Below are positions 2,029 to 28,900 of a stretch of 64,000 bases of DNA, piece after piece. Under the pieces are notes generated by a model. That model was not told the origin of the DNA. It saw nothing but the letters and a program-made list of their open reading frames with translations, and did no database searches. The stretch is from a virus: positions 1 to 64,000 of the IMG/VR virus record IMGVR_UViG_3300009180_000021. One strand, written 5' to 3'. Position 1 is the stretch's first letter. Each line of letters starts with the position of its first letter. Position numbers and translations under genes: made by a program.

Positions 2029-3137
2029 TTAGGCAAAGAGATATAATCTGGAACACTAGTAAAATTATAAATCTTAACTTCTCTAAAAACATCTTGTAAG
2101 ATTTGATCATCATAGAGTTCAACACCAGCTTGGAGCCATGATCTTGTCATAGCAGAATTATTAGCTTCATCAGAAGTAGTCCATTCTGTAGGATGGAGAT
2201 AATAATAGGCTAAATATTTCATAGCTTTCTTAATACTTCCTTTACCTTCGCTATCTTCGTAATTCCAAACGTCGATCCCCAAAGATTTTGCTATAGTAGC
2301 TAGATTTACTAGTAGTATTAGATTAAAATTACTATAATGTCTATTTTTTACTCTATTCATTTCTAAGACCTGTTTACCATCTATATCTATTTGAGCAACT
2401 AGCAAAGCTGTTAAATTATTCTCCAGATAGGTTCGTGCCTCAACTTCTTTTCCGCATGCACAAAGATAAGAACATAATTGTTTCATATAAGAGGTTTTAA
2501 TATTATGGCTATAGCTAGCTTGCAAGACTCCTCTAGGATTAGTTTTGAACCAATCGCTTAATGAGTCAAACCATGAAATCATTCCATTGTCTAGTTCAGT
2601 TGTCCAATGAGAACTAGGTTTAAGCAGTTCAATAAAATCTGGTAATACTGATAATATATTACTATCTATAATTGCTCCTCTAATTCGCAGATCATCCATG
2701 CTATCGCCGATAACTAATCCACTATATGTCATACTAGGATTCATTTTAGTATTTTCATTAAGAAAGAAAACTTGAAGAGCTTCCATAGCTTTAATAACAT
2801 AGTCTTCAGACTTAGTGTAGTAGTATAAAGTAGATGCTGAAGCTACTAAAGATAGTATAGAATTTAAGTATGGACTATCAGAACTTTTTCTAGACTCAAG
2901 GTTTCTTGTTCCATCAATTCGGATATAAGGAAATCCCGTTGGAGAGTTTGGGTCTGGGTGATAGTATGGAGCTAAACTTGTAAAATTATTAGCTCCTGTC
3001 TTTTGTTTTAGTTCAGCAGAGTTTGATATAATACTTGGTAGTGGAGCATTAAGAATATCTCCACATTGTTCTTGATAAAATGCTATCTGATCAGGGGCTA
3101 GTTGGTCCATTCTATTCTTATTTAATGTTAATAGCAT
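2025..3137 (-). CDS. Alginate lyase family protein (PL5-like), possible depolymerase
   Basis: The 370-residue product resembles the alginate lyase (alpha/alpha barrel) family by eye. Landmarks are PTGFPYIRIDG (66-76), LNENTKMNP (126-134), the segment around HNIKTSYMKQ (211-220), QIDIDGKQ (249-256), EMNR (259-262) and YSNFN (268-272). In characterised family members the centre is N-N-H plus Arg and Tyr. Here Asn212, Arg262 and Tyr268 fit, but the position expected to be His appears to be Ile213, with a His at 211, so activity is uncertain. No signal peptide is obvious. The start overlaps the stop of the glycosyltransferase gene (TAATG), so the two are translationally coupled. It may cleave an acidic polysaccharide on the host surface, or be a non-catalytic binder. 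Confidence 0.75.
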   Translation of the reverse strand: MLLTLNKNRMDQLAPDQIAFYQEQCGDILNAPLPSIISNSAELKQKTGANNFTSLAPYYHPDPNSPTGFPYIRIDGTRNLESRKSSDSPYLNSILSLVASASTLYYYTKSEDYVIKAMEALQVFFLNENTKMNPSMTYSGLVIGDSMDDLRIRGAIIDSNILSVLPDFIELLKPSSHWTTELDNGMISWFDSLSDWFKTNPRGVLQASYSHNIKTSYMKQLCSYLCACGKEVEARTYLENNLTALLVAQIDIDGKQVLEMNRVKNRHYSNFNLILLVNLATIAKSLGIDVWNYEDSEGKGSIKKAMKYLAYYYLHPTEWTTSDEANNSAMTRSWLQAGVELYDDQILQDVFREVKIYNFTSVPDYISLPN

Positions 3138-4748: not shown

Positions 4749-5675
4749 ATGCCAGCAGCTAATTATAATTTTGTCATAGAACAAGGTTCAGCTTTTAAAA
4801 TAACTTTTTTGTATGCTGATGAGAATGGAAATGCTGTAGATATAAGAGATTACTGTGTATTAATGCAGTGGTTGACAGATACAGGTGATGCTTATATATT
4901 CTCAAATAGATATACTGGTGATGAGTATGATTTTCAAGCAAATTCTGATGGTACCATAGTTCTTCAAATTCCAGCTAGGATCACCAACACTTATACATTT
5001 AATTCGTTTATTTATGACTTAGACTTACAGGAACCAAGAGAACAATACCCTGGAGGAGGATTAACCACATATCGTTTAGCTACGGGATCTGTAGGTATTG
5101 TTAAAAGAAATATCCCAACGACATTACCAGATTGTGCAAATATTAGCGCTTCAATTAATAATTTATTAAAATCTTGTGATAGCCAATGTAATAATTTAGA
5201 TATTTATAGTATAATATATACTGGAAGTGGTTTAAATATTCCTGATAATGACAGCATAGTGGATACAATCTCTATTAGTGATACTAGGCTGATAGATAAT
5301 GTTGAAATTGCAATTAATGGCTTAACCCACAGCAGCCCACAAGATTTAATTTTTATATTAGCTCCTCCTTCTGGGGATAAAATTCTACTATCTGCTAATT
5401 CAAAAATATCAAATTATAAATCTGGATTTAGTTTTATGTTTTCTAATAGAGCATTAAATAATATATATCTAAATAATGTTATTAGTGGTGGTTTATGTCA
5501 AATTAAAGATAAAACAACAACAATAAACTATAATAATGAAACTCTTATTAGTACTATAGATAATCTTATAGGATCTTCAGCTAATGGTAATTGGGATCTC
5601 ATAATTATTGATAGCGATATTGGAGATATTGGAACCATTGATTCGTGGAAATTAATAATTACATATGCAGGATAA
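4749..5675 (+). CDS. Virion protein with Ig-like N-terminus and P-domain C-terminus
   Basis: The 308-residue product starts 13 bases after the connector stop, with AGGATA upstream. Residues 1-120 carry FVIEQGSAFKITFLYADENG, VDIRDYCVLMQW and LQIPARIT, the pattern of a common phage baseplate/tail N-terminal beta-sandwich. Residues about 162-306 match the proprotein-convertase P-domain: a start near NIPDNDSIVDTI, a strand EIAINGLTHSSPQDLIFILAPPS, and NGNWDLIIIDSDIGDIGTIDSWKL close to the end. P-domains are beta jelly-roll modules found beside proteases and as adhesive modules. No protease is present, so here it is probably a binding or structural decoration. Confidence 0.75.
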   Translation: MPAANYNFVIEQGSAFKITFLYADENGNAVDIRDYCVLMQWLTDTGDAYIFSNRYTGDEYDFQANSDGTIVLQIPARITNTYTFNSFIYDLDLQEPREQYPGGGLTTYRLATGSVGIVKRNIPTTLPDCANISASINNLLKSCDSQCNNLDIYSIIYTGSGLNIPDNDSIVDTISISDTRLIDNVEIAINGLTHSSPQDLIFILAPPSGDKILLSANSKISNYKSGFSFMFSNRALNNIYLNNVISGGLCQIKDKTTTINYNNETLISTIDNLIGSSANGNWDLIIIDSDIGDIGTIDSWKLIITYAG

Positions 5676-5878: not shown

Positions 5879-6381
5879 ATCCATTCTCTAATATATTAAC
5901 TCTAGAATTTAAACAACTATTTAATAATGCTATAGACGCTATATTATCTGATTCTGGTCTAACAACAGAATGTATTTTAAAATATGGAAATGAATTTAAT
6001 CAACAAAATCTTTGTGATAATTGTATCCTAGATACTATCAGTAGAGTATCCTCCAACATATACAACAACACTGGACCATCTCCTTTTCCTGATGGAGGAG
6101 TATGTCCTGTTTGTTTAGGTATTGGAATGACAAAAACGGTTAAAGAAGAAAGTATTAAATTAGCGGTAATTCTTGATAGTAAAAGCTTTATTAATGTTGG
6201 AGATATTGCTATGGTTGGTAATGGAGTTTTACAGACTATTTGTCGTATAGATTTACTTTCAAAAATTAGCAATGCAAGAACTTTGACAGTTTCTGGCTCA
6301 GAATATAAAAGAGCTGGTGAACCACGAACTTGTGGACTAGCTGAACATCAATATATTGTAACCTTTTGGAGTAATGCTTGA
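5875..6381 (+). CDS. Conserved-type virion protein with four-cysteine zinc-ribbon-like motif
   Basis: The 168-residue product has C47-x2-C50 and C77-x2-C80 (CDNC and CPVC), enclosing a GPSPFPDGG turn, a likely zinc ribbon. A beta-rich C-terminal half (VKEESIKLAVILDSKSF, RTCGLAEHQYIVTFW) follows. It overlaps the preceding gene by 4 bases and the next by 1, so the three are coupled. The position between connector and tail tube and the size fit a head-completion or stopper-type protein. That role is inferred from context; the cysteine motif is directly visible. Confidence 0.6.
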   Translation: MNPFSNILTLEFKQLFNNAIDAILSDSGLTTECILKYGNEFNQQNLCDNCILDTISRVSSNIYNNTGPSPFPDGGVCPVCLGIGMTKTVKEESIKLAVILDSKSFINVGDIAMVGNGVLQTICRIDLLSKISNARTLTVSGSEYKRAGEPRTCGLAEHQYIVTFWSNA

Positions 6382-7025
6382 TGAATCTATCATTAAACAT
6401 ACTAGAAAGTAACAGTACTATCAGAGGACTAATCCTAGACTCACTCAAAGTAGAATTAGACCGTATTATGCAAAAATCAGCTAAATCACTCTCTATAAAG
6501 ATAGTTCCATTAGTATCTGATGCCTTAAAACAAGAACCAGAATATAGCTCTTTAAAATCTGGAAAATTAAGATTTGAATTTGGTATACCAGACAGTAGTG
6601 TTGTTGATGATATAGTTGAAAAAATAGCTAATACTATTACGATCAATAATCTTCCAATTAAAATATCAAACGCTGGATTATCAGGTGGATTTCAGTTGAC
6701 TGGTATCAAAACAGACGATATTAATGGTATTATCAATGATTCTAGTGCAATAGTTGATGATACAACTAGAGGATACTCTTTACCTTGGTTAGAGTGGCTT
6801 TTATTTAAAGGTAGTCAAACCATAGTACAAAATTATAATGTAAAAATTGGACCAAATAGCAATTCTCGTACTGGCAATGCTATTATGGTTAGATCTAATA
6901 GTAACTGGAGAGTTCCTGCTGAATTTGCTGGTACAGCTTCTAGCAACTGGACTACAAGAGCTGTTGATCGTTTGGAGTCAAGTATTTACAAGCTTATACA
7001 AAGTGAAGTAGAAGCTAATATATAA
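6381..7025 (+). CDS. Probable tail-completion / neck protein
   Basis: The ATG at 6381 overlaps the preceding stop (TGATG) and is preferred to a TTG one codon earlier. The 214-residue product has a helical N-terminus (ILDSLKVELDRIMQKSAKSL) and a middle domain. The C-terminal half contains RGYSLPWLEWLLFKGSQ, GNAIMVRSNSNWRVPAEFAGT and a final helix. Helix plus beta fold, size and location are those of gp10/tail-completion-type proteins that attach the tail to the neck. No invariant motif allows a firm family name. Confidence 0.55.
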   Translation: MNLSLNILESNSTIRGLILDSLKVELDRIMQKSAKSLSIKIVPLVSDALKQEPEYSSLKSGKLRFEFGIPDSSVVDDIVEKIANTITINNLPIKISNAGLSGGFQLTGIKTDDINGIINDSSAIVDDTTRGYSLPWLEWLLFKGSQTIVQNYNVKIGPNSNSRTGNAIMVRSNSNWRVPAEFAGTASSNWTTRAVDRLESSIYKLIQSEVEANI

Positions 7026-7046: not shown

Positions 7047-10000
7047 ATGACTATTAGTAGTGACATATTTATACCAGTATTATCAGATACTGCTATAACA
7101 GGCATACTTGCAGATTGCGATGGAGGTGGTCTTTATCCTCCTTTTAGTATTGATATACATGACTATTATATTAGAGAATCCTCAGTGTCTGGAGTTTCGA
7201 ATATATCATTATTTGTAAATGAAATAGATAGAACATTAGAAGTAATTCCATCAGGATCTGTAAATAAAACTCTATATATAACAGATGATATTCAAGAGTA
7301 TTTCATAAAAATAATACCAAAGGATTTTCCTGTTGCTACTATTTCAGAAAAAACAGCTGATTATATACCCGGATACTACTTAGCTGTTCCAAGCGATGGC
7401 TTCTCAGCTCAAATATATTGTTCTATTTATGACCAATATGGAGTTCCAATTTGGTACGTTAAGTCTCCTTCTCAAACAATTAGTCTCCATAAAGGATACC
7501 AAAATAATAGATTAATAACAAACGCTTGGAATGATCAAGAAAGATATATAATACAATTATCTGAAAATAATCTAGATTTAGTTAATATCATTAATATGAT
7601 AAATCCTGACAGTAGATCAGTCAATCATACTATCGATGTTCATGAAACACAAGAAATAAAAAATCCAATTAATAGACGAGGAAATATAATCTATTTATCT
7701 TATAATAATGGATTTTATATTCAGGAACAGTCACCTAATCATCAAATTGTATGGGAATGGTGGAGTGGTGACAGTTTTAATTCTAATGATCCTGAGTGGT
7801 TTCACGCAAATTCTTTAGATGTTCATCCTATTACAGGTAATATAGTTGTTAGTTGTAGAAATCATAATGTGGTATTCTGTATTGATTATGAAACAAAGGA
7901 TGTTATTTGGGCTATTGATACAAATGGGTCACTTGAAGCTATAACCATACAAACTAATCCAATAAATTTTTTAACAGTAACAGGCGACGAATACAATGGG
8001 TTGGATGCCCAGCATGATGCAAGATGGCAGATGGATATAGAGCCATTGACTAGTGGAAATGATACGGTTTCAATTTTTGATGATGGATCTTTTACTGGTA
8101 CTTTAGCTGGTGGCGTTATATATGAAATAGATCTTACTAATAGTACAGCAATATGTAGATCAAGAATAAAGGGAGATTCTGGCATTCCTTTTCAAGGAAG
8201 TTATACAATAGTAAAGGAATTAGATGATTCTTTTACTCATACTATTAATTATGTAACTTTAAGTCCACGAATGATCGAATATAAAGGAGACTCTAATGGA
8301 CTAGGAACACAAGTACAAACTTTTGCTTTGGATTTTTCAGAAAGTGGACCAAATCCATATGAGTATAGAGTAATAAAAGTTAGAAGTGATTTTTTTGATA
8401 TTAATTACTTAAGGACAACATCTGGTAGAGACATATTTCATTATGAAGATACCACAGTACTTGATATGCATTTTGATGGTAATAATGGTAGTTCAACATT
8501 TATAGATAGTTCACAATATAATAATGTCATTTCTATCGAAGGTTCTCCAGTCATTAGTGACTCTCAAAGCGTTTCTGGAGGAACAAGTTTATATCTTGAT
8601 GGATCTTCTAATCTAAAAATTGCTAATTCACCTATTTTTAACTTATCAAATAGTAAATTCACAATTGATGCTTGGTTCTATCCAACATTAGAGATTGCAC
8701 AAGGATCCATAATAGGCAAAGATCAGCACGGAATTTCTTTATCTTGGGTCGTTTATATTACCGATGATCATATTAGCTTTTATGGTCATAATGGTGGTGA
8801 TGGTCTAATTGGACCAGCATTTATTTCCAGTAATGAATGGCATCATGTTGTGGTAAGTGGAAATCCTTTGTTTGGAGATATGTTTAATATTAAGGTATAT
8901 GTAGATGATATCTTGAGCATAGACGATTCCTATCAAATGACGGATGCAGATAGTATTATTACAATTGGAAGAGTAGGTGGAACAACTGAGCCAGGAGGTT
9001 ATTTTACAGGATATATAGATGAACTAAAAGTTATTAAAAGTCAAAGGGTTTTGCCTAATCAACCAACTCCTACACCAACTCCGACACCAATAATAGGAAA
9101 CACTCCGACCCCTACCCCTAGCTCAACCAACAGTATTGTTACTACTCCAACTCCAAGTTCTAGTCCGAATAATAATCGAAATCGTCGCCCAGCCTCTGCT
9201 GCTTTCAATCTAGTTTCGGATATAGGACATATGGGTCCAGTAGCATCATTAGAAGATAATCTTAAAAGCTTTTTAGATTGGTCATTTTTAAATATTGGAG
9301 CTTTTGTTAATGTTGATATTTCTACTAATAGTCTTGATGGTGGAGATTTTTCTAAACTAAAACCAGTTAGTGGAGATCCAACAGTAGTTTATCCAAGAGT
9401 GTGGGAATCACCAAGAAAAGACTGGATATATGAGACAGGAATATATTATCATAATACCAGCCCATATAATATATCTGGTATAAATCTTAATGGAACATTC
9501 TTGCCTGCTCCAACAGGCAGTGGGGCATATTCATACCATATCAACTATCCATTAGGAAGAGTAACATTCGACAAAAATATATCAGCTAAAAGCAATGTTA
9601 GTTTAGAATATTCTTATAGGTTAGTTCAAGTATATAAATCTAGTGATAGTGTTTGGTGGAAAGAGGTTGTTGAAAATTCTTACAATCCATCAGTACTTCA
9701 GGATAAAACATCCTCTTATAATAAAATCCAACTTCCAGCTATAGTTATAGATATAGCTCCAAGATCAGTATCTATCCCTTATGAGCTTGGAACAACCACA
9801 AACATACTAATACAAGATGTTATGATTCACATATTAACAGAAAGCCCAGTTCAAAGGAATAATCTAATAGATATTTTATTAAAGCAAAAAGATAAGATGC
9901 TTAATCTCTACAATCTGCAAAAACTTATTAAGAATGATAGGCAGTTTACAAATTACAGGGGAGAACCTAACCCTAATAGGCTAAATTATGATCAAATTTA

Positions 10001-10130
10001 CAACGATCAATCTTTTTACTTGGCTAGAGCATATATAAAAAATGCTGTTTTATCAGAATTAAATGTTTTTAGCAACAACCTATATCATGGTGTATTAAGA
10101 TTGAGTATAGAGATTTATCCAACTATATAA
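7047..10130 (+). CDS. Tail/neck structural protein fused to arylsulfotransferase-like and LamG domains
   Basis: The 1027-residue product has four parts. Residues about 90-460 resemble the arylsulfotransferase (ASST) propeller: EWFHANS (250-256), IVVSCRNHN, VIWAID, AQHDARW (321-327) and VSIFDDGS, with His253 and His323 where family histidines occur. Residues about 474-660 are a LamG/concanavalin-like domain (FTIDAWFYP, EWHHVVVSG, GYIDELKV). Residues about 672-712 are a Thr-Pro/Ser linker. Residues about 725-1027 form a structural domain (LEDNLKSFLDWSFLNIGAF, YPLGRVTFD, LPAIVIDIAPR) that looks like the conserved virion core. The first two domains are probably surface decorations. Whether the ASST part is catalytic is unknown. 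Confidence 0.7.
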   Translation: MTISSDIFIPVLSDTAITGILADCDGGGLYPPFSIDIHDYYIRESSVSGVSNISLFVNEIDRTLEVIPSGSVNKTLYITDDIQEYFIKIIPKDFPVATISEKTADYIPGYYLAVPSDGFSAQIYCSIYDQYGVPIWYVKSPSQTISLHKGYQNNRLITNAWNDQERYIIQLSENNLDLVNIINMINPDSRSVNHTIDVHETQEIKNPINRRGNIIYLSYNNGFYIQEQSPNHQIVWEWWSGDSFNSNDPEWFHANSLDVHPITGNIVVSCRNHNVVFCIDYETKDVIWAIDTNGSLEAITIQTNPINFLTVTGDEYNGLDAQHDARWQMDIEPLTSGNDTVSIFDDGSFTGTLAGGVIYEIDLTNSTAICRSRIKGDSGIPFQGSYTIVKELDDSFTHTINYVTLSPRMIEYKGDSNGLGTQVQTFALDFSESGPNPYEYRVIKVRSDFFDINYLRTTSGRDIFHYEDTTVLDMHFDGNNGSSTFIDSSQYNNVISIEGSPVISDSQSVSGGTSLYLDGSSNLKIANSPIFNLSNSKFTIDAWFYPTLEIAQGSIIGKDQHGISLSWVVYITDDHISFYGHNGGDGLIGPAFISSNEWHHVVVSGNPLFGDMFNIKVYVDDILSIDDSYQMTDADSIITIGRVGGTTEPGGYFTGYIDELKVIKSQRVLPNQPTPTPTPTPIIGNTPTPTPSSTNSIVTTPTPSSSPNNNRNRRPASAAFNLVSDIGHMGPVASLEDNLKSFLDWSFLNIGAFVNVDISTNSLDGGDFSKLKPVSGDPTVVYPRVWESPRKDWIYETGIYYHNTSPYNISGINLNGTFLPAPTGSGAYSYHINYPLGRVTFDKNISAKSNVSLEYSYRLVQVYKSSDSVWWKEVVENSYNPSVLQDKTSSYNKIQLPAIVIDIAPRSVSIPYELGTTTNILIQDVMIHILTESPVQRNNLIDILLKQKDKMLNLYNLQKLIKNDRQFTNYRGEPNPNRLNYDQIYNDQSFYLARAYIKNAVLSELNVFSNNLYHGVLRLSIEIYPTI

Positions 10131-10241: not shown

Positions 10242-11357
10242 ATGCCAGCTAATAACAGAATTTTTTATGCTAGTCAGTCAGTTCAGCTACAACCACAAAA
10301 TGCAGATGGAACAGCATTATATGATGATGGTAGTTCGTGGTATGTTCCACAGGGACTACAAAGCGTTGGTATGACAACAAATTTTGCTCTAACACCAGTT
10401 TTCCAACTCGGTCAATTAGATCTTTATGATAATTTAGAGAATGTTCCAGAGGTTGAAGTAACACTTAATAAAGTTCTTGACGGAACACCAACATTATATG
10501 CTATGTGCATGTGTGGACCAAGTGGTATCGCAGGAGCTAATAATAAAGAACTAGTAGAATTAGTTAATAATAGAGTTAATTTTAGACTAGGTATTTGGCC
10601 AGATACTGTTCCTGCGACCACAGGCACTGCTAGACATTATGTTGATTGCTCTGGTATGTATTTGAGTAGATTCAATTTTACTTTTCCCATCGAAGGAAAC
10701 GCTACAGAAGAAGTTACTCTTGTTGGTAATAATAAGATCTGGAATAGTGGTTCTCCAATGTCAACAAGTGAATTTGATCCATCTGATGAGGGAAAAACTC
10801 CAACAGCTCCTGGTATCGTTCGCAGATATAACTTTAATCCAGGACAAAGTATTCTTCCAACAGGCAAGGCTGGAATCCCAATTCCTTCAGGCAGAGAGAT
10901 TAATCGCCCATACGTACAAAGTGTTACTCTCAGTGCTGACCTTGGTCGTGAAGCTATTTATGAGCTTGGTGCTATGGCCCCATATTTCCGTTATGTTCGC
11001 TTTCCATTAGAAGTTAAATCAGAATTTCAGGTTATTGCTAGTGATGGCGATACGGTTGATGCTAATGACTTTAGTAGTGTTACTGGTTGTGGACAGAACT
11101 ACAGAAACGTTATAGATAAATCTGTTAAGATTGCTGTTTGCGCCGGAACAGGTAATACTTCTGGCTATCTAAGTCTTGATCTTGGTGGTAAGAATAAGCT
11201 AACATCAGTAAATTATACTGGTGGAGATACTGGTGGTGGTAATGCTACTATTTCATATAGCTTTCAGACCTATAATAAGTTTAAGATTAGTAGTAGCGGC
11301 ACTTTCGCTCAAGAAAAATGGTCAGATAATACTGTAGATACTGACTACTATTTTTAA
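10242..11357 (+). CDS. Probable major tail tube protein
   Basis: The 371-residue product is beta-rich and starts with NNRIFYASQSVQLQP. It contains repeated polar strands (VPEVEVTLNKVLDG, FNFTFPIEGNATEEVTLVGNNKIW, RPYVQSVTLSADLGREAIYELG, RYVRFPLEVKSEF). The NxTEExxLVGNxK pattern and a late Gly-rich strand region are typical of tube proteins that stack as hexamers around the tape measure. A strong GGGAG precedes the ATG, and a private 111-base upstream gap suggests high expression. It lies upstream of chaperone-like genes and the tape measure gene, the usual tail order. No sheath gene is adjacent. Confidence 0.75.
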   Translation: MPANNRIFYASQSVQLQPQNADGTALYDDGSSWYVPQGLQSVGMTTNFALTPVFQLGQLDLYDNLENVPEVEVTLNKVLDGTPTLYAMCMCGPSGIAGANNKELVELVNNRVNFRLGIWPDTVPATTGTARHYVDCSGMYLSRFNFTFPIEGNATEEVTLVGNNKIWNSGSPMSTSEFDPSDEGKTPTAPGIVRRYNFNPGQSILPTGKAGIPIPSGREINRPYVQSVTLSADLGREAIYELGAMAPYFRYVRFPLEVKSEFQVIASDGDTVDANDFSSVTGCGQNYRNVIDKSVKIAVCAGTGNTSGYLSLDLGGKNKLTSVNYTGGDTGGGNATISYSFQTYNKFKISSSGTFAQEKWSDNTVDTDYYF

Positions 11358-13917: not shown

Positions 13918-16900
13918 ATGGCAGCAGGCTTTAATCTAACGGCACAGCTTAATCTTAAAGGACCAAGTAATGTTTCTGTTATAGTAGCAGACATTAAAAA
14001 GCAATTAGGTACCATTAATGCTTCGGTAAATCTCACTATTGCTCCAGCAGCTACCACAAACTTAAATAGAATAAATGCTGCACTATTAACATTTAACAGA
14101 ACACTATCAACAACAACAGGAAATGCAAATGCTGCTGCTACTGCTATTCGTAATCTTAGTACTTCTATTGGATCGATAAATGCTTCTAACTTACCCCAAG
14201 TACTCAATAGCTCGGCTACTGCTTTAAATAGAGTCGCTCAGGCATCGACCAATAATGCCAAACAACTAAGATCAGCAAGTAGTGAAATGACAGAGTTCGG
14301 TAGACAAGCAGGACTTGCTTTTAGAAGATTTTCTGCAATCACCTCTGTTACTAGTGTTATATACGGATTAACTAATGCTATTAATAATGGTGTTAGAGCA
14401 TATATTGATTATGATAGAGAATTAGTAAAGCTACAACAGGTTACCGGTCAGTCAGCAGCAGGATTGAAGGGCCTTGAAACCACCATCACAAGTCTAGCAA
14501 CAGGTTTGGGCGTTGGATCAGCAGAACTTACTCAAATATCTAGCACACTAGCTCAGGCCGGCTTATCTGCAAGAGATACTGAAAGAGCTCTTAAAGCATT
14601 AGCATTAAGTTCATTAGCCCCGTCATTCGATAGTATGAATGAGACTGTTGAAGGTTCTATTGCTTTGATGAGACAGTTCGGTATTAATGCTGGCGATCTA
14701 GAAAAAGCACTAGGCTCTGTCAACTCTGTTGCTGCTAAATTTGCTGTTGAAGCTGCTGACTTAATTACAGCCATTCAGCGTACTGGTGGTGTGTTCGCCA
14801 CAGCGAGTAAGGGAGTTAGTGAAGGTACAGATGCCCTTAATGAATTCTTAGCCGTATTCACTAGTATACGAGCTACTACTCGTGAAAGCGCAGAAACTAT
14901 TGCTACTGGCTTAAGAACTATCTTTACCAGAATTCAAAGAGGAGACACAATAGAGGCTCTCAAAGAATATGGTGTTAATCTACAAGATCTAGATGGTAAG
15001 TTCGTAGGAGCTTATAAGGCCGTTGAACTATTAAGTAAAGGTCTAGGTAATTTAGATCCAAGAGATTTAAAGTTTTCAAAGATTGTTGAAGAACTTGGTG
15101 GATTCCGACAGATTGGTAAAGTTATTCCTCTTATTCAACAGTTCGCAACAGCACAAGATGCATTGAAGGTGGCTCAAACAGGACAAGGATCATTAGCAGC
15201 AGATGCTGCAAAAGCTCAAGAGTCTTTAGCTGTGCAAATATCCAAAGTTCGTGAGCAATTCTTAGCTTTATTCAGAGATATTGGAAAATCAGATAGTTTT
15301 CAAGCAATTGCTCAAGGAGCATTATCTGTTACTAGTGCTTTAATTAAGGCTGCTGATAGTATTAAAGGAATATTACCAGTTCTAGGTGTTATGCTAGCAT
15401 TTAAAGGTGCCTCGGCAGCCGTACAATTTGGTAGCGGATTTTTAAGTGGAATAAGAGGTTCTGGTGGAGCTAAAGGACTAGGTAATAGATTGGGTGGCGG
15501 TCCAGGTATGAGTTCTGGTGGTCCAGTTAGAAGATTTGCTAGTGGTGGATTAGTTCCTGGAAGCGGAGACACAGACTCTATTGATGCTAAGTTGATGCCA
15601 GGCGAATTTGTGATGAGTAAACCAGCAGTTAAGGCCATAGGGTCACATAACCTTCATAGAATGAATAAGTATACTGAAGGAGGAAAGGTAGGACCAATAG
15701 AGATTAAAACTCTACCACAAGCTGTTTCACTAATCTCTCAAAATCCTAGAGTAGCACAATATATTAATCCTAAACAAGATAGTGCTTCAGCATCTATTCA
15801 ACAGATAACACCGAATATGCTAAGTTTGGATGTTAAGACTATATCAAGAGAAATATATAATGATATGAGAAAAGGACTGCCTATTTCTCAAGCAAATCAA
15901 AAATTTTTATTAGGAAAAAATAAACCCACACCAGTACAATCAAAAAGTTATGCTGGATTGTTGTCTAGAAGAGGACAAGACTTTTTAGCTGGAAAAGAAG
16001 GTCAAAGAAGAGTTGATGAACTAGGTACTCAAAGAGAAAGTCCTAAATGGTCTGAAGCATATGAAAGACTTTTGTCAAATCATATGAGAGATGAATTAAG
16101 AATAAGAAATTATATACCAACTGGTGAAATTGAAAATGTTCCTTATAGGAATAGTTATCCAATTGATTTAATAAGTAAAAATGGAAGATCTATTGGAGAA
16201 GTAAAATTTCGTCCTAGTGGCGTTGTATCTAAAACAGATTATTTAGATAAATTATTAAGAGCAAGAGTGACTAGAAATATAACGCAACCCTTTACTAAAT
16301 TTTCTCCAGAGACAAAAGATATCGGCAATATTGAAGTTTTTGAAATGCCGAATAAAAGCTCGGTTATTGAAGAAATTCGCAGGCTATATAAAAAAGATCA
16401 AACTAATAAAGCTTCTGGCGGTTTTATTCGTAAATTTGCTAATGCGGGTTTAGTGACTCCAACGTCAGGCACAGCAGCTACTTCTACAGAGATATTCAGA
16501 GTTCTTACTTTAGATGAAGTTATTAAAGATACTGGATCAAATGCTGGTGATATACAAAAAATATTAAAGAAAAGAAAATCATTAAGTCCAACAGAACAAG
16601 CTATCAAAGATAAAATTTTAGCAAAATATACAGAAAAAACTTCTGGAATTAAAGCAGCAAATGCTCTGGATATAGAAAAAGCAACCACAGAGGGTCTCTT
16701 ATTTGGTGCTGCTGGATTCAAAGGCAAGGCGTTTGCTACAACTCCCAGAATGGATATTCCAGGATTAAAAAATCCAGTTAAAGTTAGAATTACTAGTGGT
16801 GTTTTAGATTCTGAAATGTCAAAGAAGTTATTAGGTAAGATGACCGTCGGATTAAATGATATAGCTAATAAAACTTCAAGAAACATTATGATTAAGGATA

Positions 16901-19900
16901 TTCTGAAGCAAACAGGTCCACTATATGCTGATTTTGATAGAACATTAGCTTTTGGTGCAGATAAAATCTTAGCCGATCCGAGAAAACCAAAATATAGCGA
17001 ATTCTCTAATAGAGAAAAAGTATCTGGTGCTCTTAAAACAGCTAAACTTAGTGCTTTGGGTAAAGCCATAGCAAATACAGTTAAGCAGACTCCATCTTTT
17101 GCAGATAATCTGCACATTATTTCTGCTAGACCACAATCAACAATGGATCTGATTGCTGGTTGGTTAGCACAACAAGGTATTCCAATTCCTCTTGGTAGAA
17201 TTAAGGGTGTTGGTGGAGAAAATATTACAGCAGAACAAGTTGCTATCCTCAAGGCAGACTTGATGAATCCAGAGGGCGCTTTTATTGATGACGACGATAG
17301 AAATATAGCAGAAGCTGAGAAGAGGGGTATAAGATCATATCTCTATAAAAAGAAAAGAGTAGGACCAACATCTAGGAAAAAGCTTGGCGAAGCCAATGCA
17401 AAAGGATATCTTGCTGAAAGAGTTATCAATGAATTGGGTGGTCCAATAGCAAATAAAGCTGCCACCAATTATGGCATCGATTTCCCAGACGGTCTTCAAA
17501 GTGCTGCTAAATATTTTAATCTTCCTCAAAACATTCCAACAGACGCTAAACTTACTCTTAATGGACCAGCAGAACTAAAAAGTCAGATCGGTAATTATCT
17601 TAAGGCTAGAGGCTATGCATCAGGTGGGCATGTTCAAGCTATGGTTTCTAATGGCGAGGCTTATATACCACCAGAAGCAGCTAAGGAAATTGGATATTCA
17701 AGACTAAATGAAATGAATCAGGCTGACCGTAATGGGATGAGTAAATTTGCCAAAGGTGGCATCGGCGTTTTTAAAGGACCAGGAAACGGTACCAGTGATA
17801 GCATAGGTCCAATAGATTTACCTGTTGGTAGCTTTATACTGAGAGAAAGAGCAACAAAAGCATTAGGTTTGTATGCTAGTGGCGGAAGCGTTGGACTTCA
17901 AACTTTTGCTAGTGGTGGACCTGGATTACCAATAAGACCAGAGACAATACAAAGCTCAACGATAAGAATCAACCAAGAGTCAATTACTTCGTTAAAACAA
18001 CTAGAACAAATTATTCAAGAACTTGGATTAAGTAGTAAAAAAGTTTCATCATTACTACTTAATGAAGGAAGAGTATCATATGCCTCAGCAGAAAAAGCTG
18101 CCAAATCTGAAGTAGATAGAGTCAAGGCGGCTGGTGGTAGTATTAGTCAAATAATAGCAGCTGAAAATGCTTTAGCTACAATTAGAAAATCTAAAAATAA
18201 AGAAGTTGGTAAAAATAATGCATTAGAGAGTGCCTTCAGTGCAGTAAGAGATAGATCTTCCGGTGAAGTTCAACAACAAATTCTATTAGAGTCCAATAAG
18301 CATGCTCAAGATGTCATATCAAGAGCAGAAGAAGCCAGAGCAAAACAGAATAAGAGTCCTTTGACAGAGGAACAAAAAAATAAAATATATGAATCATCTA
18401 CTCTAAGAGCAACATCATCAATAACTGGTGTTAGTAGATCTGATTTAAAATCTCAAGGAATTGTTGGTGAAGACGTAAGAAAATATGCTCAACAAAGCAT
18501 GATGGATCGTAAGTTTCTAGCTCAAATGGATAAAGAATATAGAGTATTACGTACTCAAGAATTAATTTCTTTAGGCAAAGGAGCAGCTGAAGCCAGAGCT
18601 TTAACAGAAAAAGAGTTGGCAGATCGAAGGATTGCTGCTAGGAATATGGCAACAGCAGCAGGATTAGCTGGACCCGGTAGAGACTTAATACCAAGATATA
18701 CTGGTACTGGTCTAGAAAATTTTGGATCTAATTTTGCTGGATTGAGAAAGAGTCTTTCTCCTAAGAATTTACTTGGGACAGGTAATAGGATGATACAATC
18801 CTTGGGTGGATTGGGTACTGGTAATGCTGGATACTTCGCAAGCTTGGGTCTTGGTATAATTGCCGGTCAAGGAAATAATATTGCGGGCATGCTTCCTGGC
18901 GGTGGAGATAAAAAAACCAGATCCAAAGTGGGTGCGGGTATAGAGGCTGGAGTTAGTACCTTTGCTTCTGGCTTAAGCATAGCTTCTAGTGCTGCACTAA
19001 TCCCTGTTGTTGGACCATATATTGCTGCTTTTACCCTAGCTGGTACGGCTCTTTTATCTTTAAAGGAAGGATTCAATGGGGCAACAAAAGCAGTCAAAGA
19101 ATTTGAACAAGCTGAAAGAACCAAAAAAATAGAAGATATTGATGAGAAAATAGCAAAAGGGGTAGAGGCTGCTCAAAAAACAGGAAATAATGATAATCTT
19201 ATTAGACCATTAACGGATAGACTAAAATTAAATGATGATGATTTTGCCATTAAAATTAAAAATGCAGCCGAAAATAAAGCTAATAGCAGAGGAATACTTG
19301 GATCTTTTATGGGTGGTCCGGTACCAAAATTAGATAAAAAAGACATAGACCAACTAGTCTCTGAGCAGTCAAAACAAAATAGCGGTGCGGCAAAAGTTGC
19401 TAGAGATATTATTGAATCTAAAATTAGTAGAGGAAGTACACTATCAGATATCTCCCAAGATCCTGGTTTTGCTGCTTTAGCTGACAGTATATCTAGTGCA
19501 GATAATGAGTTTCTAGCATTTGTAGCAAAAATAAATGATATGGAGGATGCTGCTTTCGCTGCTACTGGCACAACAAAACAAAAAAGAATTCAGGAAGAAC
19601 TAGCATCTCGTAGAATAGCACTATTGAAAGACGAAGTGTTTTTGGCTGCACAAAGGACGGCAGTAACCGCTAAAGCTATGGAAGAATTAGAAAGATCAAC
19701 AAGAAAAGCTACACAAGGATTTGATAGTCTTGGCAGATCTATTCTTTCTGCTGTTTCTAAGGTAGAATTTAATACCAATAACGCTGCTAAAATAAGAAGA
19801 AGTAATTCTGAAGCTCTTACAGGAAAACCAAGAGTAGCCAATGCAGACAGCGAAGAGTTGGATATGTTAAAGAATCCAGAAGCTTATGCCATGGAAAGAG

Positions 19901-22900
19901 ATAGGGTTAAATCTAATTATAGGAAAATCGCATTTGAAATTACCAACCCTAACGCTCAGGGTATTCCGGTAGAAGAAAAAAAATCACGAATCAATCAAGC
20001 TAATTTGATCAGTGATGCATTAGGGTTTGATCAAACTAAAATAGATGAAATACAAGGAAATCTTAATAAACGAATAGCTGATGCTATTAATAGCGATAAG
20101 GGTAATGAAGATTTAACAAAACTAGGACCAAAATTAGAAACTGCACTCGATGAATCTACAAAAGGTTTACCAGATGTTATAAGAAATAATTTAAAACTAG
20201 CATTAAAAAATACTATAGATGAAGTAGATAAATTAAAATTTGATAAACCTGGAGAAAAAGTAGATAAATTATCTGATGAAATAGATAAAAAATTTGGCAA
20301 CTCCATAGGGAATATGACAGACACTTTACGTAAAGGTACCATCGCATTTTTAGAGTTTAAAAATAAAGGTGCAGATAGATTTGTAGAATCTTTAAACAGA
20401 ATTGTAGATTCTGTACTAGCAGCAAATGAAAGTCTTGATAAAGCCAGAAATATTGCAACAGAAACTGATTTGACACTGAAAGAAGCTCTTACTGGGGCTC
20501 CTACCAGTATAAGACAGCGTATAGGTATTAGAGATAATGAAATAAAAAATCAAACGGCAGGAACTAAAGAGGCTAATCAAATAGTAGCAAGAGAAGTTGG
20601 ATTTAATCTTAATAATAGTACTGCTGATCCAAAACTTATAAGACAAAATATCGAGAATCTTGCTGAAGCTAGGAAAAAATTATCAGAAAGAGAATTAAAG
20701 ACACCAGTAACGGACAGGGGTCCAATACAAAGCGATATGGCAAATTTGGATCTGCAGATAATTAAAAATAAAAATGCTTTAGAAAAACTAGCTAATAGTA
20801 GTGATATAGTAACAGCAGCATTTGGTCAGTTGCGAGATGCACAAAAAATGCAAGCTGATAGATTACAAAATCTAGATCAGATATTATCTTCAACGCCACA
20901 AGAACTACAAAAACTGAATGAGTCTTTAATAAGAGTTCAACAAAGAATGATGGGTATCAATCCTGGCCCATCAAGAGCGGCTAAACAAGCATATGATATG
21001 ACTTTTAGACAAACTGGTGGCAATAGATTCTTGGCTATGCAAGCTGGTCAAGCTCAGATGGCTCAAGATAGAGGTATTGACCTTAGAACAATGGAACAGT
21101 ACAAATCTAACTTCATATTAGATATCAAAAATAGAGCAGCTGCTCAAGGAAAAGAATTATCTGATCAAGATGCAGAAATGGAATTTAGGAAACGCAGTGG
21201 TAATCTTAGAGGTCAAATGGCCAACGAGCTTGGATTTATGAATCCTGGAGTAGCTCAGACAATAATGGCTAGTGTTGATCCTACCAGAGACCCCGTTATT
21301 GCACAATTAGCTGATACAATAAAGGTAAATAGTGCTATTCAAGTTAGTGCTAATGAGCAAATAGCTGCTTTATTCAATAAAGACGCAATATCAGAAAATA
21401 CATCTGCCATATTGCTTTTGAAAGAGCAGATCGAAAATTTTTCTGGAGTTTTAGCGGGTTTGCAGAATATTAAATTAGCAGATTTAGGTATTAATAATCC
21501 TCTTAGAAAAGCAGATGGTGGAGTTATTTATGCTTCTGTTGGTGGTAGCTTAGTTAATTTTAGTCCAAAGGGTACTGATACTGTTCCGGCTATGTTAACC
21601 CCCGGAGAGTTTGTCGTCAATGCTAGAGCAACTGCTCAAAATTTATCTTTATTAGAAAGCATTAATAGTGGTAATAGTTTAGTTGGTAATACTGCCATGA
21701 TGAGTAGTGGTGGTGTGGTTTATCTATCAACGGGTGGTAGAACTCGCAAAGATATAGAAGATAAATTAAAACAAGAAAGAATAGAATCAGACAATATAAA
21801 TCAAACTATTAGATCCAGAACAGAAGCTTATAAGGCTCCGGATAGCAAAGAAAGAATGGAAGATGAGAAGAAACAAAAAGAATTACTTGATGAAGAAGCT
21901 AGATTAATGGGGGGTGATTTTGATAAATTTAGAGAAGTATCAGATAGAAGAATAGCTCACGAAACTGAAATGAGAAGAAAAAGTAGTTCTTATAAAACAG
22001 AGGAAGAAAGGAGTCGTCTTGGTAGGATAGAAGTTAATGGTAGTCAGAGATACGCTGCTCAAGCAAATATGGGAGACGAATCTGCAACTACAGATAGAAG
22101 TTTACTTAATGATCTAGATTTAGTCGAAAATAGACCCAATGACAGCAATATGGGAAGAATAGGTGTTAATTCTGTTAATAATGCTTTGAGAGATGCTGGT
22201 ATCCCAGAAAGAGCTCTAGCATTTGGCCCAGGAACTGGATTAGAATTTCATAGCGATGGTATTAATTGGACACAACGTATAGCAGATGAGCAGGCCAAAC
22301 CCGACTTCGGCGCTAGGGTAAGTCAATACTATATAAAAGAGAAAGAAAAAGAAAGAAAGCTTGCTGAAGAAAGACTAAAGAAAGAGAATGTTCAGTACAA
22401 TACAAATCCTGTGAAACCTCCAGTTCCAGCAGGAGCGCCAGTACCGGCGGTTCCTCCAGCAGCACCTCCAGCAAAAGCTCCAGCAGCACCAGCACCAGTA
22501 CCGGCGGTTCCTCCAGCAGCACCTCCAGCAAAAGCTCCAGCAGCACCAGCACCAGTTCCGGCGGCTCCTCCGGCAGCACCAGCGCCTCCAGCAGGAGCAC
22601 CGGCTCCTCCTGCTCGTCCAAAGGTTTTCAGAAAGCCCAATAATATGGGAGAAATTGGGCTATTCAGAGAAGGATTGGCTCGCGGCATGACTATAGATGA
22701 AATTAAAGCTGAAAGACAAAGAAACTTTTTAAAGAAAAAAGGAAAAAGACCGATAGGAGAAAAAGATGCTAGCAAACAAGAACTTGAAGATTTTCGAAAG
22801 ACAAGAGCAAAAAGATTTAGAGATCAATATAGTGATACTTCAGCGGCGGCTGGAGATTATAGGCCATCATTAGTTCCTGGAGATCCTAGAGCACAGATAC

Positions 22901-25900
22901 CTGGCAAACAAAATCTTGACGATTTTTATAGATTAGACGTTAATGAAGACGGAGTATTATCGGGTAAAGAAAGAACAGCATATTCAGAACTAGATACTGA
23001 TAAAAATAAAGAAATTAGCACAGATGAATGGCTAGGAAGAGGATTTGATCCTGGAGATGTTCTTCAAAGACATAAATATGGAATTGATATTTATGATGAA
23101 AAGAAAACTGCTGCTAGAGCTAGGGAATTATCTGAGGCTATGCCATCTTATGAGGAGAAAGCTGCTAATAATGAGCCAATATTCGATATTGAAGGTAATC
23201 CAACCACGTTAGAAGAAAAGAGAAAAGAGCTTGCGACACTACAAGAAACACTAGGATATTATAAAACTCCTAAAAGTCTAATAGCTAGTCAAAGAAATAG
23301 AGATGATGCTGTAGCAAGTAGACTTAATGGTAGATCTTGGGTTGTTGATCGAGCTTTACAGAGAATATATTCAGATAGAAGATATTTTGAAGAAAATAGA
23401 CAAAAGATTCAATCTCAAAATCCTGATGCTGATCCTGATAAAATTTTTAATATGACTGTTGACTCAATTAGAGATCAACAATATGGTATAGGCAGAGATG
23501 AAAATTTCTGGAGATCAATAGGAGTTACATCAACACCCAATTCATATAATGAATCTAGTGCATTAAGTCATATTAGAGACAAAGAAGATTTATCAACTAG
23601 AGACGATCCAACAGGTCAAAAAACTAGAGATTATATAGATGAATATAAATCGTCGCAATCTGCAAGAGAACAAAGTAACAGAGTAGATAGAGGTAATGGA
23701 AGAGATATTGCTGGTCCTGATAGGGCGATAGTTGGTACTCAGGGTCCGGTTGGGAAAATGAATAATCTTATAGATGAACAAGAAAAGGGCAATCCTGCTA
23801 TAAATGATGCTAGACAAAAAGCATATGAGAAACAGCAAGAAAGACGCAGAGTAGAAGGTGAGCGTCAAATGGCTCTAGACGCTAGAGACAAAGAGCTTGG
23901 TATGATCACCAGTGATAGAGGAGGAAATCCGCCCGGATATGATCCAGGATCAGCAGCATCTGCGGGTTTTGAACAACAAAAACAAAGACGAAGAGAACAG
24001 ATTATAGAATCTCAATATAAGTTTACTAATAAGGATGGAACAGCATCAACAACAGGAACTATTGATAACGTAGACTTTAAGGCTGGAACAGTTAGAATAG
24101 CAAAGATTGATCCAAAAACAGGTATGCCTATTACTAGGAAAATACCAATATATGGTAATGGAGAGGTAACAAAGAAACAATTAGAAGCCCAAGGAAGAGA
24201 TCCTGAAAAGTTTGTTACAGGATATAAAGAAGAACAAATCTATACAACGGTACCTCTTGATCAATTAAGCGATCAGTCCAGAACTAAAGTTAGAGCACAT
24301 GCTTTAGAAAAAGAAGTAGATAAAGCTAAAACTGGTGAAAATTTCTTAATAGGTAATGATAGTGGCAAACAGATATCTGGCAGAATATATAGTGTAAATG
24401 AAAAATCGGGATCTGCTGTTATTCAAAGAGCTAATGGAACAAGGTTCACTGTGCCTCTTGATAAGTTGGCTCCTCAATCTAGAAATATAGCTCTTGAACA
24501 GTCTAGAAATGATTCAACAATATCGCAGCTAGAACATAATGAAACTCTTAAAGGTATTAGTGAACAGGTTTCCGCAGATATTAATGCCTCACTACCTTCT
24601 CCACCGATTCCTCTGCCAGAAGTTATACCTACTATTGAAGATCCAATGAAACAACTTGCTATGGAGCAAGATAAGCTTGACGCATTACCAGTTATGCCTC
24701 CAGAACCCAAAAAGTCTGGGGCTAGAGTTGATCCTATAACTGGTAGAGTATTGGATGCACAAAAAGCAACAACTGCTGGTGGTCCTAGTAGAGCACAATT
24801 TTTTAATGGAAATGCAGATAATGCAAAACAAGAAGCTATTGATATCAAAGAACAACAAGCAACAATAGCTATCGAAAGAGAAAAGTCGGAAAAAAGATTT
24901 CAAGAACTTAGATCAAGAGCAATAGGTCAGAGTAAATATGATAGATCTTGGCTAGGGGAATATTGGCCAAAAGAATGGGGAGGAGCTGAAAAGCCAAAGA
25001 AGAGATTAACAGCAAAAGAATATGAAGAATTAGGAACATATGAAGCCGAGAGAGGAATTCCATTTGGAGATAGAAGAGGATCAACCGTATCAGCTAATAC
25101 CATTAGAAGAGAAACTTTAACTATTAATCAGATGAGTCAATTGGATAAACAGAGTCTTCAAGATACTAAAAAGAAATTAGAGATAGCGAGAGACTCAGAA
25201 GGTGGAGAAGCTGTTGGATTGGCTGCTCAAAGAGCAATAGTTCCATTATTAGCTGGTACAGCGGCCATTGCTGGTGCGCCTATTATCTTACCAGCTCTAG
25301 GAGTAACTGGCCTTGCTGCTGCTGGACTTACCATACTTGGAGGAGTTACTGCTAGTTTGACTGCTAATGCATTACAAGACGTGGCATTAGAAGGTACAGA
25401 TTTTGATAAAAGACAAAAAGAATTAGCACAAAAAAGACCAAGGGAAACTGCTGTTGGATCATTATTGACTGGATTATTAACTGGCAATCCATTTACTGGA
25501 TCTTCTACTATTGTTAGATCTTTATTAACAAGAACTGTTAGTGGGTCTACGGAAGCAGCAATAGGAGCTGGTGTTAGAGGAGCAACTAATCGCGGAGATT
25601 TTGGTACTGGTCAAGATGCTTTAATGGATTTTATTTCTGGATTTATTCTTCCATCATCTAATTTTGGAGGTAAGGGAACCAAAAATTATGCTCGTCCAGA
25701 AGGACCAGCAAAGCCAACATCTTTCAACGATATTGCACAAGAATTAAGATTTGAAGACTTTAATCGTATCATGGACAGAAACGATAGATTAGCTGCAATA
25801 GAGAAAAAAAATCAAATAAAAGATAATAAAACACAAATTAGAGATGCTCAAGAAAGAGTAGCAGAAGCTAGAGAGGCTCAAAGAGATCAGAGTATTTTTG

Positions 25901-28900
25901 AATTCATGAGTCCTATTCTTCATTTGGTACCTAATAATGGTTTTGGCATACCTGGAATGAAGGGTGCTCGTATTCCCATGAGCGAAAGCTCTAGTCCAAT
26001 TATGAGGGGGATATCCAGCTTATTATCTGGGATCGATAGTGAGTTTAAATCAGCAGGTGCTGCTTCACAGACAAAAGCACAGATAGATAAAGTTATTGCT
26101 GAAAATCCTTATCTTAATAAAACTCAGCTTGCGGAAAAATTGGTTAAAGATGGAATTGATCCAGCGATAGCTGAAAAAACAGCAACAGCAAGGAACAACA
26201 AATTCTTATCAGATCTTGCTATTGAAAAAGAGGCAAGAAAAGCAGAAGCTAAAGCACGATTTAGTGCTGAATATAAGGAAAAAACCAAAGATATTAAGGA
26301 TCCTAAAGAACGAGCTAAAATTAGAGCTGAAATTAACGAAAAATTAAATAAAGAAGCATCATCTATCAGGTCTGATATTTTTGATAGAACAAAAGCAAAT
26401 GAGGCTGGAATAAGCGTCACTGAATATAGACAACAAAAAATAGATGCTGCTAATGCTAAAGAGCAGGCAGAAGTTGATAAATTGATGGGTGGTATGTTTG
26501 AAGGCTCTTCATCAAGTAAACCAATTAGCACCACAGGAAAGCCCGATGATTATACCACAGAAGCTTGGGCAAATTTAACTCCACAACAGCAACAAACTGT
26601 TATAAATACCAGATCAAACACAAATAATGTGGAAACAGCTAATCCTGCCGTTAGTGCTGCTGAAGAAGCTGCTGGTTCTATTAAGCCGGTTGAAGTTGAA
26701 GCCAGGAGTCCCAAAGATTTATTAGAAAGAGCAAAAGACGACCCGACCGGTATGAAACAGGGTTTGTATAATACAGAAGTTCGCGCGGGCTCATATGAAG
26801 ATACGGGTACTATGCTTAGGTGGTTTAAACCAAAAGAAGTATCTTCTGACTATAGAGAGCCAATAAATACTGGATACAAGCCGAGATTTGCCGTACAGGC
26901 CGGTCAAATGGACGAAATGATATCTCGTATGGCAGCAGATCCAGAATTAGCACAGATGCTTGGTCCGTTTGGTTTCAAGCAGCACTCATTTGAAGATTCT
27001 GTATCGGGTAGGGATAAAAGATTCTTAGTAGCATATGGTAAAAAGGGTACTGCTGAAGAAGCTATTGCTATAACTAAACGTATGGAAGCATTGGGTGATG
27101 ATATTCTTTTTGCTGGCGGAGCAAAGGATTATGGAGACACAGTCTCTTTAGGGAAATTTGGAACCACAAGGTATGATCCTAATATTGATGGGGGACTTGA
27201 TACAATTGATACTCAAAAGTTAACCTCGGCATTAAAAGATTTGCGTAAAAGATGGCTTGCTAAAAGAAAACAAGAAGGTACCGATAAAACTTATGATCCT
27301 AGATTTGATAATTTTGAAGTTCCTCTAATGTCGAGCCTTAGAACCAAGGGAGGGATAGTCAGCGAGATACATACAGCTCTGTACAAGGCAGGCAAATTGG
27401 GTCCTTCGAAAATGATGGATGAATTTTATAGAGATTATCCTGATTTATTTCCAACTTACAAAGGAGATATTAGCTATACTGATAAGGGTGGTCCAGAAGC
27501 CGGTGCAATTCCACAACAAAAAGCATCAGTAGACCAAGCAACCAAAAAGGCAACAGAAACACCAGTCAATCCTTCTTCAATATCAAGAGTTGATCAACTA
27601 GCTTCTGCTGGATTTGGAGTAATTAGTGGAGACCAAGAGGTAGAAAGTGTGATAAGGTCAGCAAGAAGAGGATTTTCTTCGGATCAACCAGGTAAACCAG
27701 CAGCATTATTAACTTCAGCAGAAACATATGACAAGTATAAAGATCAATTATTAGAATTAGAACAATCAGGCAAGTTAAAAATAGGAAGAAGCGCAGGATT
27801 TGTCAAAGGTCAGCCAAATATGTTTGTAGGAAAGCCAGAAAATGTGGACATTCTTACAAAAACTTTTGATGCTGAAGTAGAGAGAAGACGAACAAATGGA
27901 ACAGCAGCATCAGAAGAGTTCCATGATACGGTAGGGAAAGCATTAGGATATAGTAAAGATAGTAGAGAACTATATAGATTAAGAAAAGATTGGGATAAAG
28001 CAGGATTAGATATAAATATTATTCAAGATAGATTAAGAAAAGGCGATAAAGCTTCTGATATGATATCTGAGATCAATGGACTTTCACGAGCAACAAAATC
28101 ATCAGAAGAAATGTCATCATTTTCAACAAGGATTTCGGATTTTGAAAAATCTTTGGATGATCTAATAAACCCTCCTATAAAACCAGCTTCATCTCCTGAA
28201 GTTGTAGCTGCTGGAAGAGTATCGTCAGAAAAGTTGGAACAAAAAAGAAGAGCCTCCAACCCAGAGCTTGCAGCAGTAAAGGATAGATTTAATAAATCGT
28301 GGAAGAAAGCAAAGGCAGCTGGTGATACTGAAGAGATGGCAAGAATAAAGAATGCTGCTGATGCCGAATATCGAACGCTTCTAGAAAAAAAACAGCAATC
28401 AAAAAGCACAAGAATGCTATTAACAGGATTGGGTATGGCTGCTCCTATTGGCGGTACTATTGGATATGGTTTATACAATCTATTATCAGGATCTGTCACC
28501 CCTAAAGATGTTGTTGGCGAAGAAAATACAGAAGGTACGGCAAAAATGCCGATGTTCGATGCTACAAATAATAATGCAGCACCAATGCCGAACATAGATG
28601 CTACAAACAACAATGCTGCTAAAATGCCAGTTATTGATCCTGATAAAAAGAAACGAAAGAATTGGAAAACTCCTAGTGGAGGAACTGGATATGCTACTGG
28701 AGGTTTAGTATATGCTAGTAATGGGGCTTTTATAAATGCTCAACCAATGGGGACCGACACCGTTCCAGCAATGTTAACTCCTGGCGAATTTGTTATCAAT
28801 CGCCAAGCCGCCCAACAACATATGCCAATGTTACAAGCTATTAATAGTGGAGCTTATAGTCAAGGTGGAGTGGTAAAATATTTGGCCGAAGGAGGTATGG

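Follow-up and report, generated by a model that had tools for sequence, protein, structure and literature searches.

The active site of the Escherichia coli arylsulfotransferase (ASST) EcAST comprises His252, His356, Asn358, Arg374, Thr501 and His436, the last of which is the histidine that becomes transiently sulfated (PMC13426309). The natural substrates of ASSTs have escaped identification for more than 40 years, according to the same 2026 review (PMC13426309). Among tailed phages, the terminator of T5 consists of a four-stranded sheet with two helices and assembles into a hexameric ring (PMC11784142), and carbohydrate-binding modules whose host binding has been shown are carried on the siphophage neck of the 936 lactococcal phages (PMC6669499).

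The window analyzed here is the first 64 kb (positions 1–64,000) of the 151,782-base IMG/VR record IMGVR_UViG_3300009180_000021. It contains a real and modular ORF of 1027 residues, consisting of an ASST domain, a LamG domain, a Pro/Thr linker and a tail terminator:

7047..10130, + strand: ASST-LamG-linker-terminator ORF in a single frame, ATG at 7047, stop at 10130, 1027 aa (Pfam, Foldseek)
7095..8432, + strand: ASST-family domain, residues ~17–462 (PF05935, leave-one-out profile, alignments, 4p07 fold match)
8442..9047, + strand: LamG or concanavalin A-like lectin domain, residues ~466–667 (PF13385, tblastn)
9048..9200, + strand: Pro/Thr/Ser-rich linker (TPTPTPTP...), residues ~668–718 (sequence)
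9207..10130, + strand: tail terminator domain, residues 721–1027 (alignment A3, AF2 and Foldseek, stand-alone gene in 38 relatives)

The G+C content of the gene, 0.30–0.34 per kb, is similar to that of the flanking DNA, which, together with the uninterrupted frame, argues against an assembly chimera. The protein has no signal peptide. Searches with NCBIfam and PADLOC returned no match, and a single-sequence search of the full protein against the PDB returned no significant one. Pfam identified Arylsulfotrans (PF05935; 35.1 bits, E=9.8e-9, curated cut-off 24.2) at residues 235–350 and Laminin_G_3 (PF13385; 44.7 bits, E=2.1e-11, curated cut-off 27.6) at residues 519–664. With both families above their cut-offs, the original assignment of the N-terminal ~660 residues to ASST and LamG is supported.

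Profile and alignment comparisons identify the N-terminal part as a full-length ASST-family domain, in which an N-terminal segment (residues ~17–95) precedes a predicted β-propeller (residues ~95–462). A profile derived from 17 cellular ASSTs, with the phage sequence left out, matched residues 61–455 with 125 bits (E=1.6e-34 at Z=1e6) and reported none of 200 shuffled phage sequences; thus, the match is more than chance. The N-terminal segment, IHDYYIR ... KIIPKDFP, resembles the YxxRCLPxDFP type of cellular ASSTs, as exemplified by the alignment of phage IHDYYIR...EYFIKIIPKDFP with VHDYAVYC...DYWLRCLPHDFP of the cellular protein L231. A genome scan for sequences of the QHDAxW...FNNG type gave 118 cellular stretches, and 53 proteins extracted from them constitute, with the phage sequence, the 54-member profile A2, which picks up E. 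coli AssT (3elq) with E=1e-10. Further genome searches revealed closer, collinear homologues in Bacteroidota and in the phyla of G031 and G032, which we take, from the type of sequence, to be Actinomycetota and the Proteobacteria/Myxococcota type, respectively. The phage domain is ~20–25% identical overall to its cellular homologues, with best identities of ~25–39% over aligned pieces. Structure prediction, which had been put forward as a check, did return an ASST as the best PDB fold match (4p07, E. coli type), from a weak AF2 model with a pLDDT of 56 and TM ≤ 0.37 for ASST matches; the low confidence arises partly because the model was built from A2, in which the first blades are misplaced. 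The six-bladed propeller and N-terminal β-sandwich of the family are attributed to the phage domain tentatively on this model. When viral structures were searched by fold, no match with an informative name emerged. The phage retains 26 of the 66 positions that are at least 90% conserved in the 53 homologues (the first blades of that alignment being misregistered). It lacks the WxLGG motif, has FDDG in place of FDNG, and carries Ser243 where many homologues have a histidine.

Five of the six EcAST active-site residues (His252, His356, Asn358, Arg374 and His436) align with phage residues (His199, His253, Asn255, Arg271 and His323, respectively), the chain numbering of 3elq being in agreement with the published residue list (PMC13426309):

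7641..7643, + strand: His199, equivalent to EcAST His252, in a D-x-H-E/D motif (alignments; invariant in A5)
7803..7811, + strand: His253-Ala-Asn255 (EWFHANS), equivalent to EcAST His356-x-Asn358 (alignments; both invariant in A5)
7857..7859, + strand: Arg271, equivalent to EcAST Arg374 (alignments; at least 90% conserved in A5)
8013..8015, + strand: His323 (AQHDARW), equivalent to EcAST His436 (alignments; invariant in A5)

Arg271 is located 18 residues from the histidine of the H-x-N motif, a spacing equal to that of EcAST. The position of Thr501 is occupied by Tyr386 in the alignment; as this position also varies among the homologues, Thr501 is not family-defining. Alignment A5 (15 sequences) has only eight invariant columns (His199, Gly222, Trp238, His253, Asn255, Trp288, His323 and Asp345), with Arg271, Ser269 and Gln322 conserved at 90% or more, and has no stretch conserved enough for scanning. 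Judged from these alignments, the most conserved positions of the family are largely catalytic, and the phage keeps them at an overall identity of ~20–25%. His148/Lys149 had been considered as the counterpart of EcAST His252 and was dropped, since the closer homologues show a collinear D-x-H-E motif at His199. His253 and His323 had been recognized in the original prediction as part of ASST-typical patterns, and they indeed map to EcAST His356 and His436; the comparison that it proposed with the active-site histidines and arginine of AssT extends the correspondence to His199 and Arg271, and to Asn255 as well.

By tblastn, structural proteins of cyanophage and Rhizobium phage origin have LamG regions that match this domain. 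Linkers similar to residues 668–718 are present in other exposed proteins of the window phage and in neck-region genes of its relatives; in the tail-fibre-like proteins of the window phage, Pro/Thr linkers separate repeated FGE-sulfatase-type domains. The region of the window at 40335–62916 contains at least nine such domains (PF03781), spaced by long Pro/Thr-rich linkers within three very long ORFs, and one LamG. A search of the virus record for a reverse transcriptase (PF00078) found none and, thus, nothing points to a diversity-generating retroelement.

The C-terminal ~307 residues have no Pfam or informative PHROG match. Their family alignment (A3) has 27 members, the others being 37–57% identical to the domain of the window phage. 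With an AF2 model derived from these 27 sequences (pLDDT 66), the best Foldseek matches in the PDB were the P74-26 neck protein, T4 gp15, T5 p142 and lambda gpU, and nearly all matches, with E values reaching 2e-4 and probability 1.00, were to tail terminators or tail caps; TM is low because the model is partly disordered. The second half is predicted to fold as strand-strand-helix-strand followed by two long strands. Based on predicted fold and synteny, the C-terminal part is assigned as a tail terminator, which puts the protein at the tail top, or neck, where, by analogy with T5 and lambda, it would form a hexameric ring. The neighboring genes are as follows:

6378..7025, + strand: conserved partner gene of 215 aa, directly upstream; its position fits a neck or tail-completion protein
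10242..11357, + strand: gene of 371 aa, directly downstream, probable major tail protein (synteny, function judged from position)
13918..29316, + strand: ORF of 5132 aa, probable tape measure protein (judged from position and size)

At 5132 residues, an ORF in the tape measure position would mean an uncommonly long tail, similar to that of P74-26, the phage whose neck protein is the best fold match of the terminator domain. The order of genes at the locus is mostly kept (~170, ~310–340, ~177, ~215, terminator, ~370, ~345, ~100 and ~300 aa, then the giant ORF), with the counterpart of the 215-aa gene measuring 213–225 aa in most relatives; downstream, the order differs in some loci (L161, L165 and L169–L180). 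The terminator gene follows the neck genes and is followed by those for the probable major tail protein, the chaperones and the tape measure, as these neighbors are judged by position. The predicted neck location is therefore well founded by homology and synteny, and the C-terminal ~300 residues, originally described as a conserved virion protein, prove to be a 27-member family with a terminator fold that is encoded by a separate gene in 38 loci.

Two other genes of the window near this locus deserve mention. A 308-aa gene (4749–5675) has a C-terminal proprotein-convertase P-domain and is another candidate for neck-region decoration. An alginate lyase (2025–3137, − strand; PF05426, E=1e-48), with no obvious signal peptide, is located antisense within the structural module and adjoins a glycosyltransferase gene. 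Its cellular relatives (~35% identical) are from Bacteroidota, and the sole match in what is likely a true phage record is a distant one.

An alignment was used to scan IMG/VR for the terminator and gave 41 loci; 38 of them were examined. In every one of these (38/38), the terminator is a stand-alone gene without an N-terminal extension, so that versions lacking the fusion, which the original prediction had suggested looking for, do exist in related phages. The relatives' terminators are usually ~307–330 aa long, and the whole open frame starts no more than ~40 residues from the homologous region; that of L149 has a C-terminal extension (429 aa), and that of L158 is truncated where its contig ends. 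The phage is long-tailed and belongs to an uncultured lineage, the 50,697 phage records containing no relative of either the terminator or the gene after it, and the fusion is known from a single virus record. Searches for other viral ASSTs, with patterns from the phage protein, a QHDA...FD[ND]G DNA pattern (checked with PF05935), ASST alignments and one closer homologue, found none in IMG/VR or the 50,697 phage records; these searches are sensitive to fairly close relatives only, and records very near the window phage may be missing from them. PF05935 was not found in the records of five relatives, and a literature search found no paper on a virion ASST. Apparent ASST matches in the phage collection were rejected, as they traced to chromosome contigs of Salmonella or E. 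coli, or to short fragments lacking annotation, that had been entered as phages. Bacterial contigs or fragments listed as phages (AFYI01000003-5, AGRM01000002-3, OR845xxx and OR850xxx-OR851xxx) give false matches to both ASST and alginate lyase.

Some of the relatives have an extra gene in the neck region (L147:3109-4368, L150:2153-3691, L152:3054-4376 and L164:2715-4355), which encodes a BNR-like β-propeller with SSDGITWTQR repeats behind a short anchor and a Pro/Thr linker, and some carry P-domains there instead. Tethering of exposed β domains through Pro/Thr linkers is a habit of this phage group. The ASST as neck cargo, fused to the terminator, is unique to one record in the data searched. 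Neck decoration itself is known; the enzyme family is new on virions as far as we have searched. Two further loci are of separate note. DNA polymerase III alpha is split over two neighboring genes (L187:8810-10435 and L187:11299-13116) into a PHP and NTPase part and a finger/HHH/OB part, and is accompanied by a DnaB helicase. L189:5254-19402 contains glycan-modification genes, namely a GlcNAc transferase (E=2e-75), a Fringe-like transferase, HtrL/YibB and UDP-galactopyranose mutase.

A device that transfers or binds sulfate is probably present at the neck of the virion; the original prediction had raised both sulfate transfer and the binding of sulfated glycans as possibilities. The explanation that best fits the whole, to which we assign a probability of about 0.5, is that the terminator ring displays LamG and ASST arms that serve in glycan attachment and, most likely, sulfuryl transfer. 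A hexameric ring at the head-tail junction would present up to six copies of LamG and ASST via the flexible linker, presumably outwards because the cargo cannot fit inside the tube. LamG, and perhaps the propeller too, would reversibly attach the virion to extracellular or cell-surface glycans, with the basic pocket of the ASST engaging sulfated small molecules or sulfated glycans. Most likely, His323 would take a sulfuryl group from an environmental aryl sulfate, which would then be passed to a hydroxyl of a host surface, matrix or virion glycan. Counted against this explanation are the missing WxLGG, the FDDG and Ser243 substitutions, the 26/66 retained positions, the weak model, the single record, and the use by relatives of other, apparently non-enzymatic propellers nearby. 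Its enzymatic component, in which an active PAPS-independent sulfotransferase on the neck sulfates host-surface, matrix or virion glycans, or phenolics, before or during adsorption, is put forward tentatively; it would be a virion-borne chemistry not previously described. No sulfatase was found in the virus record, which, thus, gives no sign of a wider sulfate pathway.

Catalysis and binding alone are both live readings, with catalysis seemingly slightly ahead, as the pocket residues are retained as a set. The close second is that the ASST propeller now serves as a lectin-like module that, together with LamG, raises local adsorption, with catalysis lost or irrelevant; the ligands would be sulfated or other anionic glycans, or aryl sulfates. 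This is a serious, if not the favored, possibility. The non-enzymatic-looking propellers in the neck region of relatives make a pure binding role plausible, as they are Pro/Thr-linked and occur, like the P-domains, in the same genomic neighborhood. LamG is a binding fold, carbohydrate-binding modules are known from the neck of the 936 lactococcal phages (PMC6669499), and several structural motifs of ASSTs have eroded outside the pocket. However, the five mapped basic and Asn residues of the active site have been retained amid drift at most other conserved positions, and the catalytic His in particular would be dispensable for a binder, although these residues could also make up a site for anions.

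That the ASST is instead a passenger enzyme, which acts inside the infected cell or at lysis to modify host metabolites or glycans, or to detoxify phenolics, rather than in adsorption, with the fusion as a means of expressing or packaging it, is improbable. The genome encodes GlcNAc and Fringe-like glycosyltransferases and UDP-galactopyranose mutase, so that modification of virion or host glycans is within the repertoire of the phage, but a free enzyme would need no fusion to the terminator, and this one is joined to the virion part by a flexible linker, is accompanied by a lectin domain and lacks a signal peptide, whereas cellular ASSTs are generally exported. Least credible is an assembly chimera, or a recent non-functional insertion of an unrelated bacterial ASST gene at the terminator, since, despite the occurrence in one record only, the 38/38 relatives without the fusion and the lack of an ASST in any other virus searched, the 1027 open codons, even G+C, missing signal peptide, Pro/Thr linker of a type found elsewhere in this genome and distance from cellular relatives (at best ~25–39% over aligned pieces) indicate that the ASST part is old in the phage, not a fresh bacterial piece.

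To our knowledge, the virion enzymes known so far mostly cut (depolymerases, lysins, sialidases and alginate lyases). If the display of LamG and ASST arms by the terminator ring is correct, a member of a sulfuryl-transfer family on the terminator would add a group-transfer chemistry to the virion, and the terminator ring would be shown to be able to carry large cargo. It would also offer a testable case for natural ASST substrates.

Compared with known systems, the phage domain is closest in the PDB, both by fold and by the A2 profile, to the PAPS-independent E. coli AssT (EcAST; 3ELQ, 4P07; PF05935), with which it shares the matched His252, His356, Asn358, Arg374 and His436 and, as predicted, a β-propeller. 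EcAST is a homodimeric bacterial enzyme, whereas the phage counterpart lacks a signal peptide, is joined to LamG and a virion protein, and has a tyrosine at the position of Thr501. PDB 9KF4, deposited under the name 'Sulfotransferase' and with nothing in its entry to suggest a phage protein, belongs to the same family by profile, with aligned HINS, SGR and QHD motifs. The secreted ASST-like proteins of Bacteroidota, Actinomycetota-type and Proteobacteria/Myxococcota-type origin (such as L196, L219, L223 and L231) are collinear with the phage protein over residues ~61–455 and share the YxxRCLPxDFP-type segment and the D-x-H-E/D, H-x-N-S, S-x-R and QHDAR motifs. In contrast to these cellular proteins, which have no terminator, the phage protein lacks WxLGG, has FDDG, and has a shorter stretch between His199 and WEW. 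The C-terminal domain resembles the P74-26 neck protein, T4 gp15, T5 p142 and lambda gpU in fold, its gene being located between the neck and probable major tail protein genes, but it shows no detectable sequence similarity in 50,697 phage records and is preceded by ~720 extra N-terminal residues. As in the 936 lactococcal phages, where such domains have been proposed to help in host binding, sugar-binding-type domains would surround the neck, here as judged by sequence architecture only. However, the 936 phages use a separate neck passage protein to carry a binding module, whereas in the window phage the terminator itself serves as carrier and its cargo includes a domain from an enzyme family, with its active site intact.
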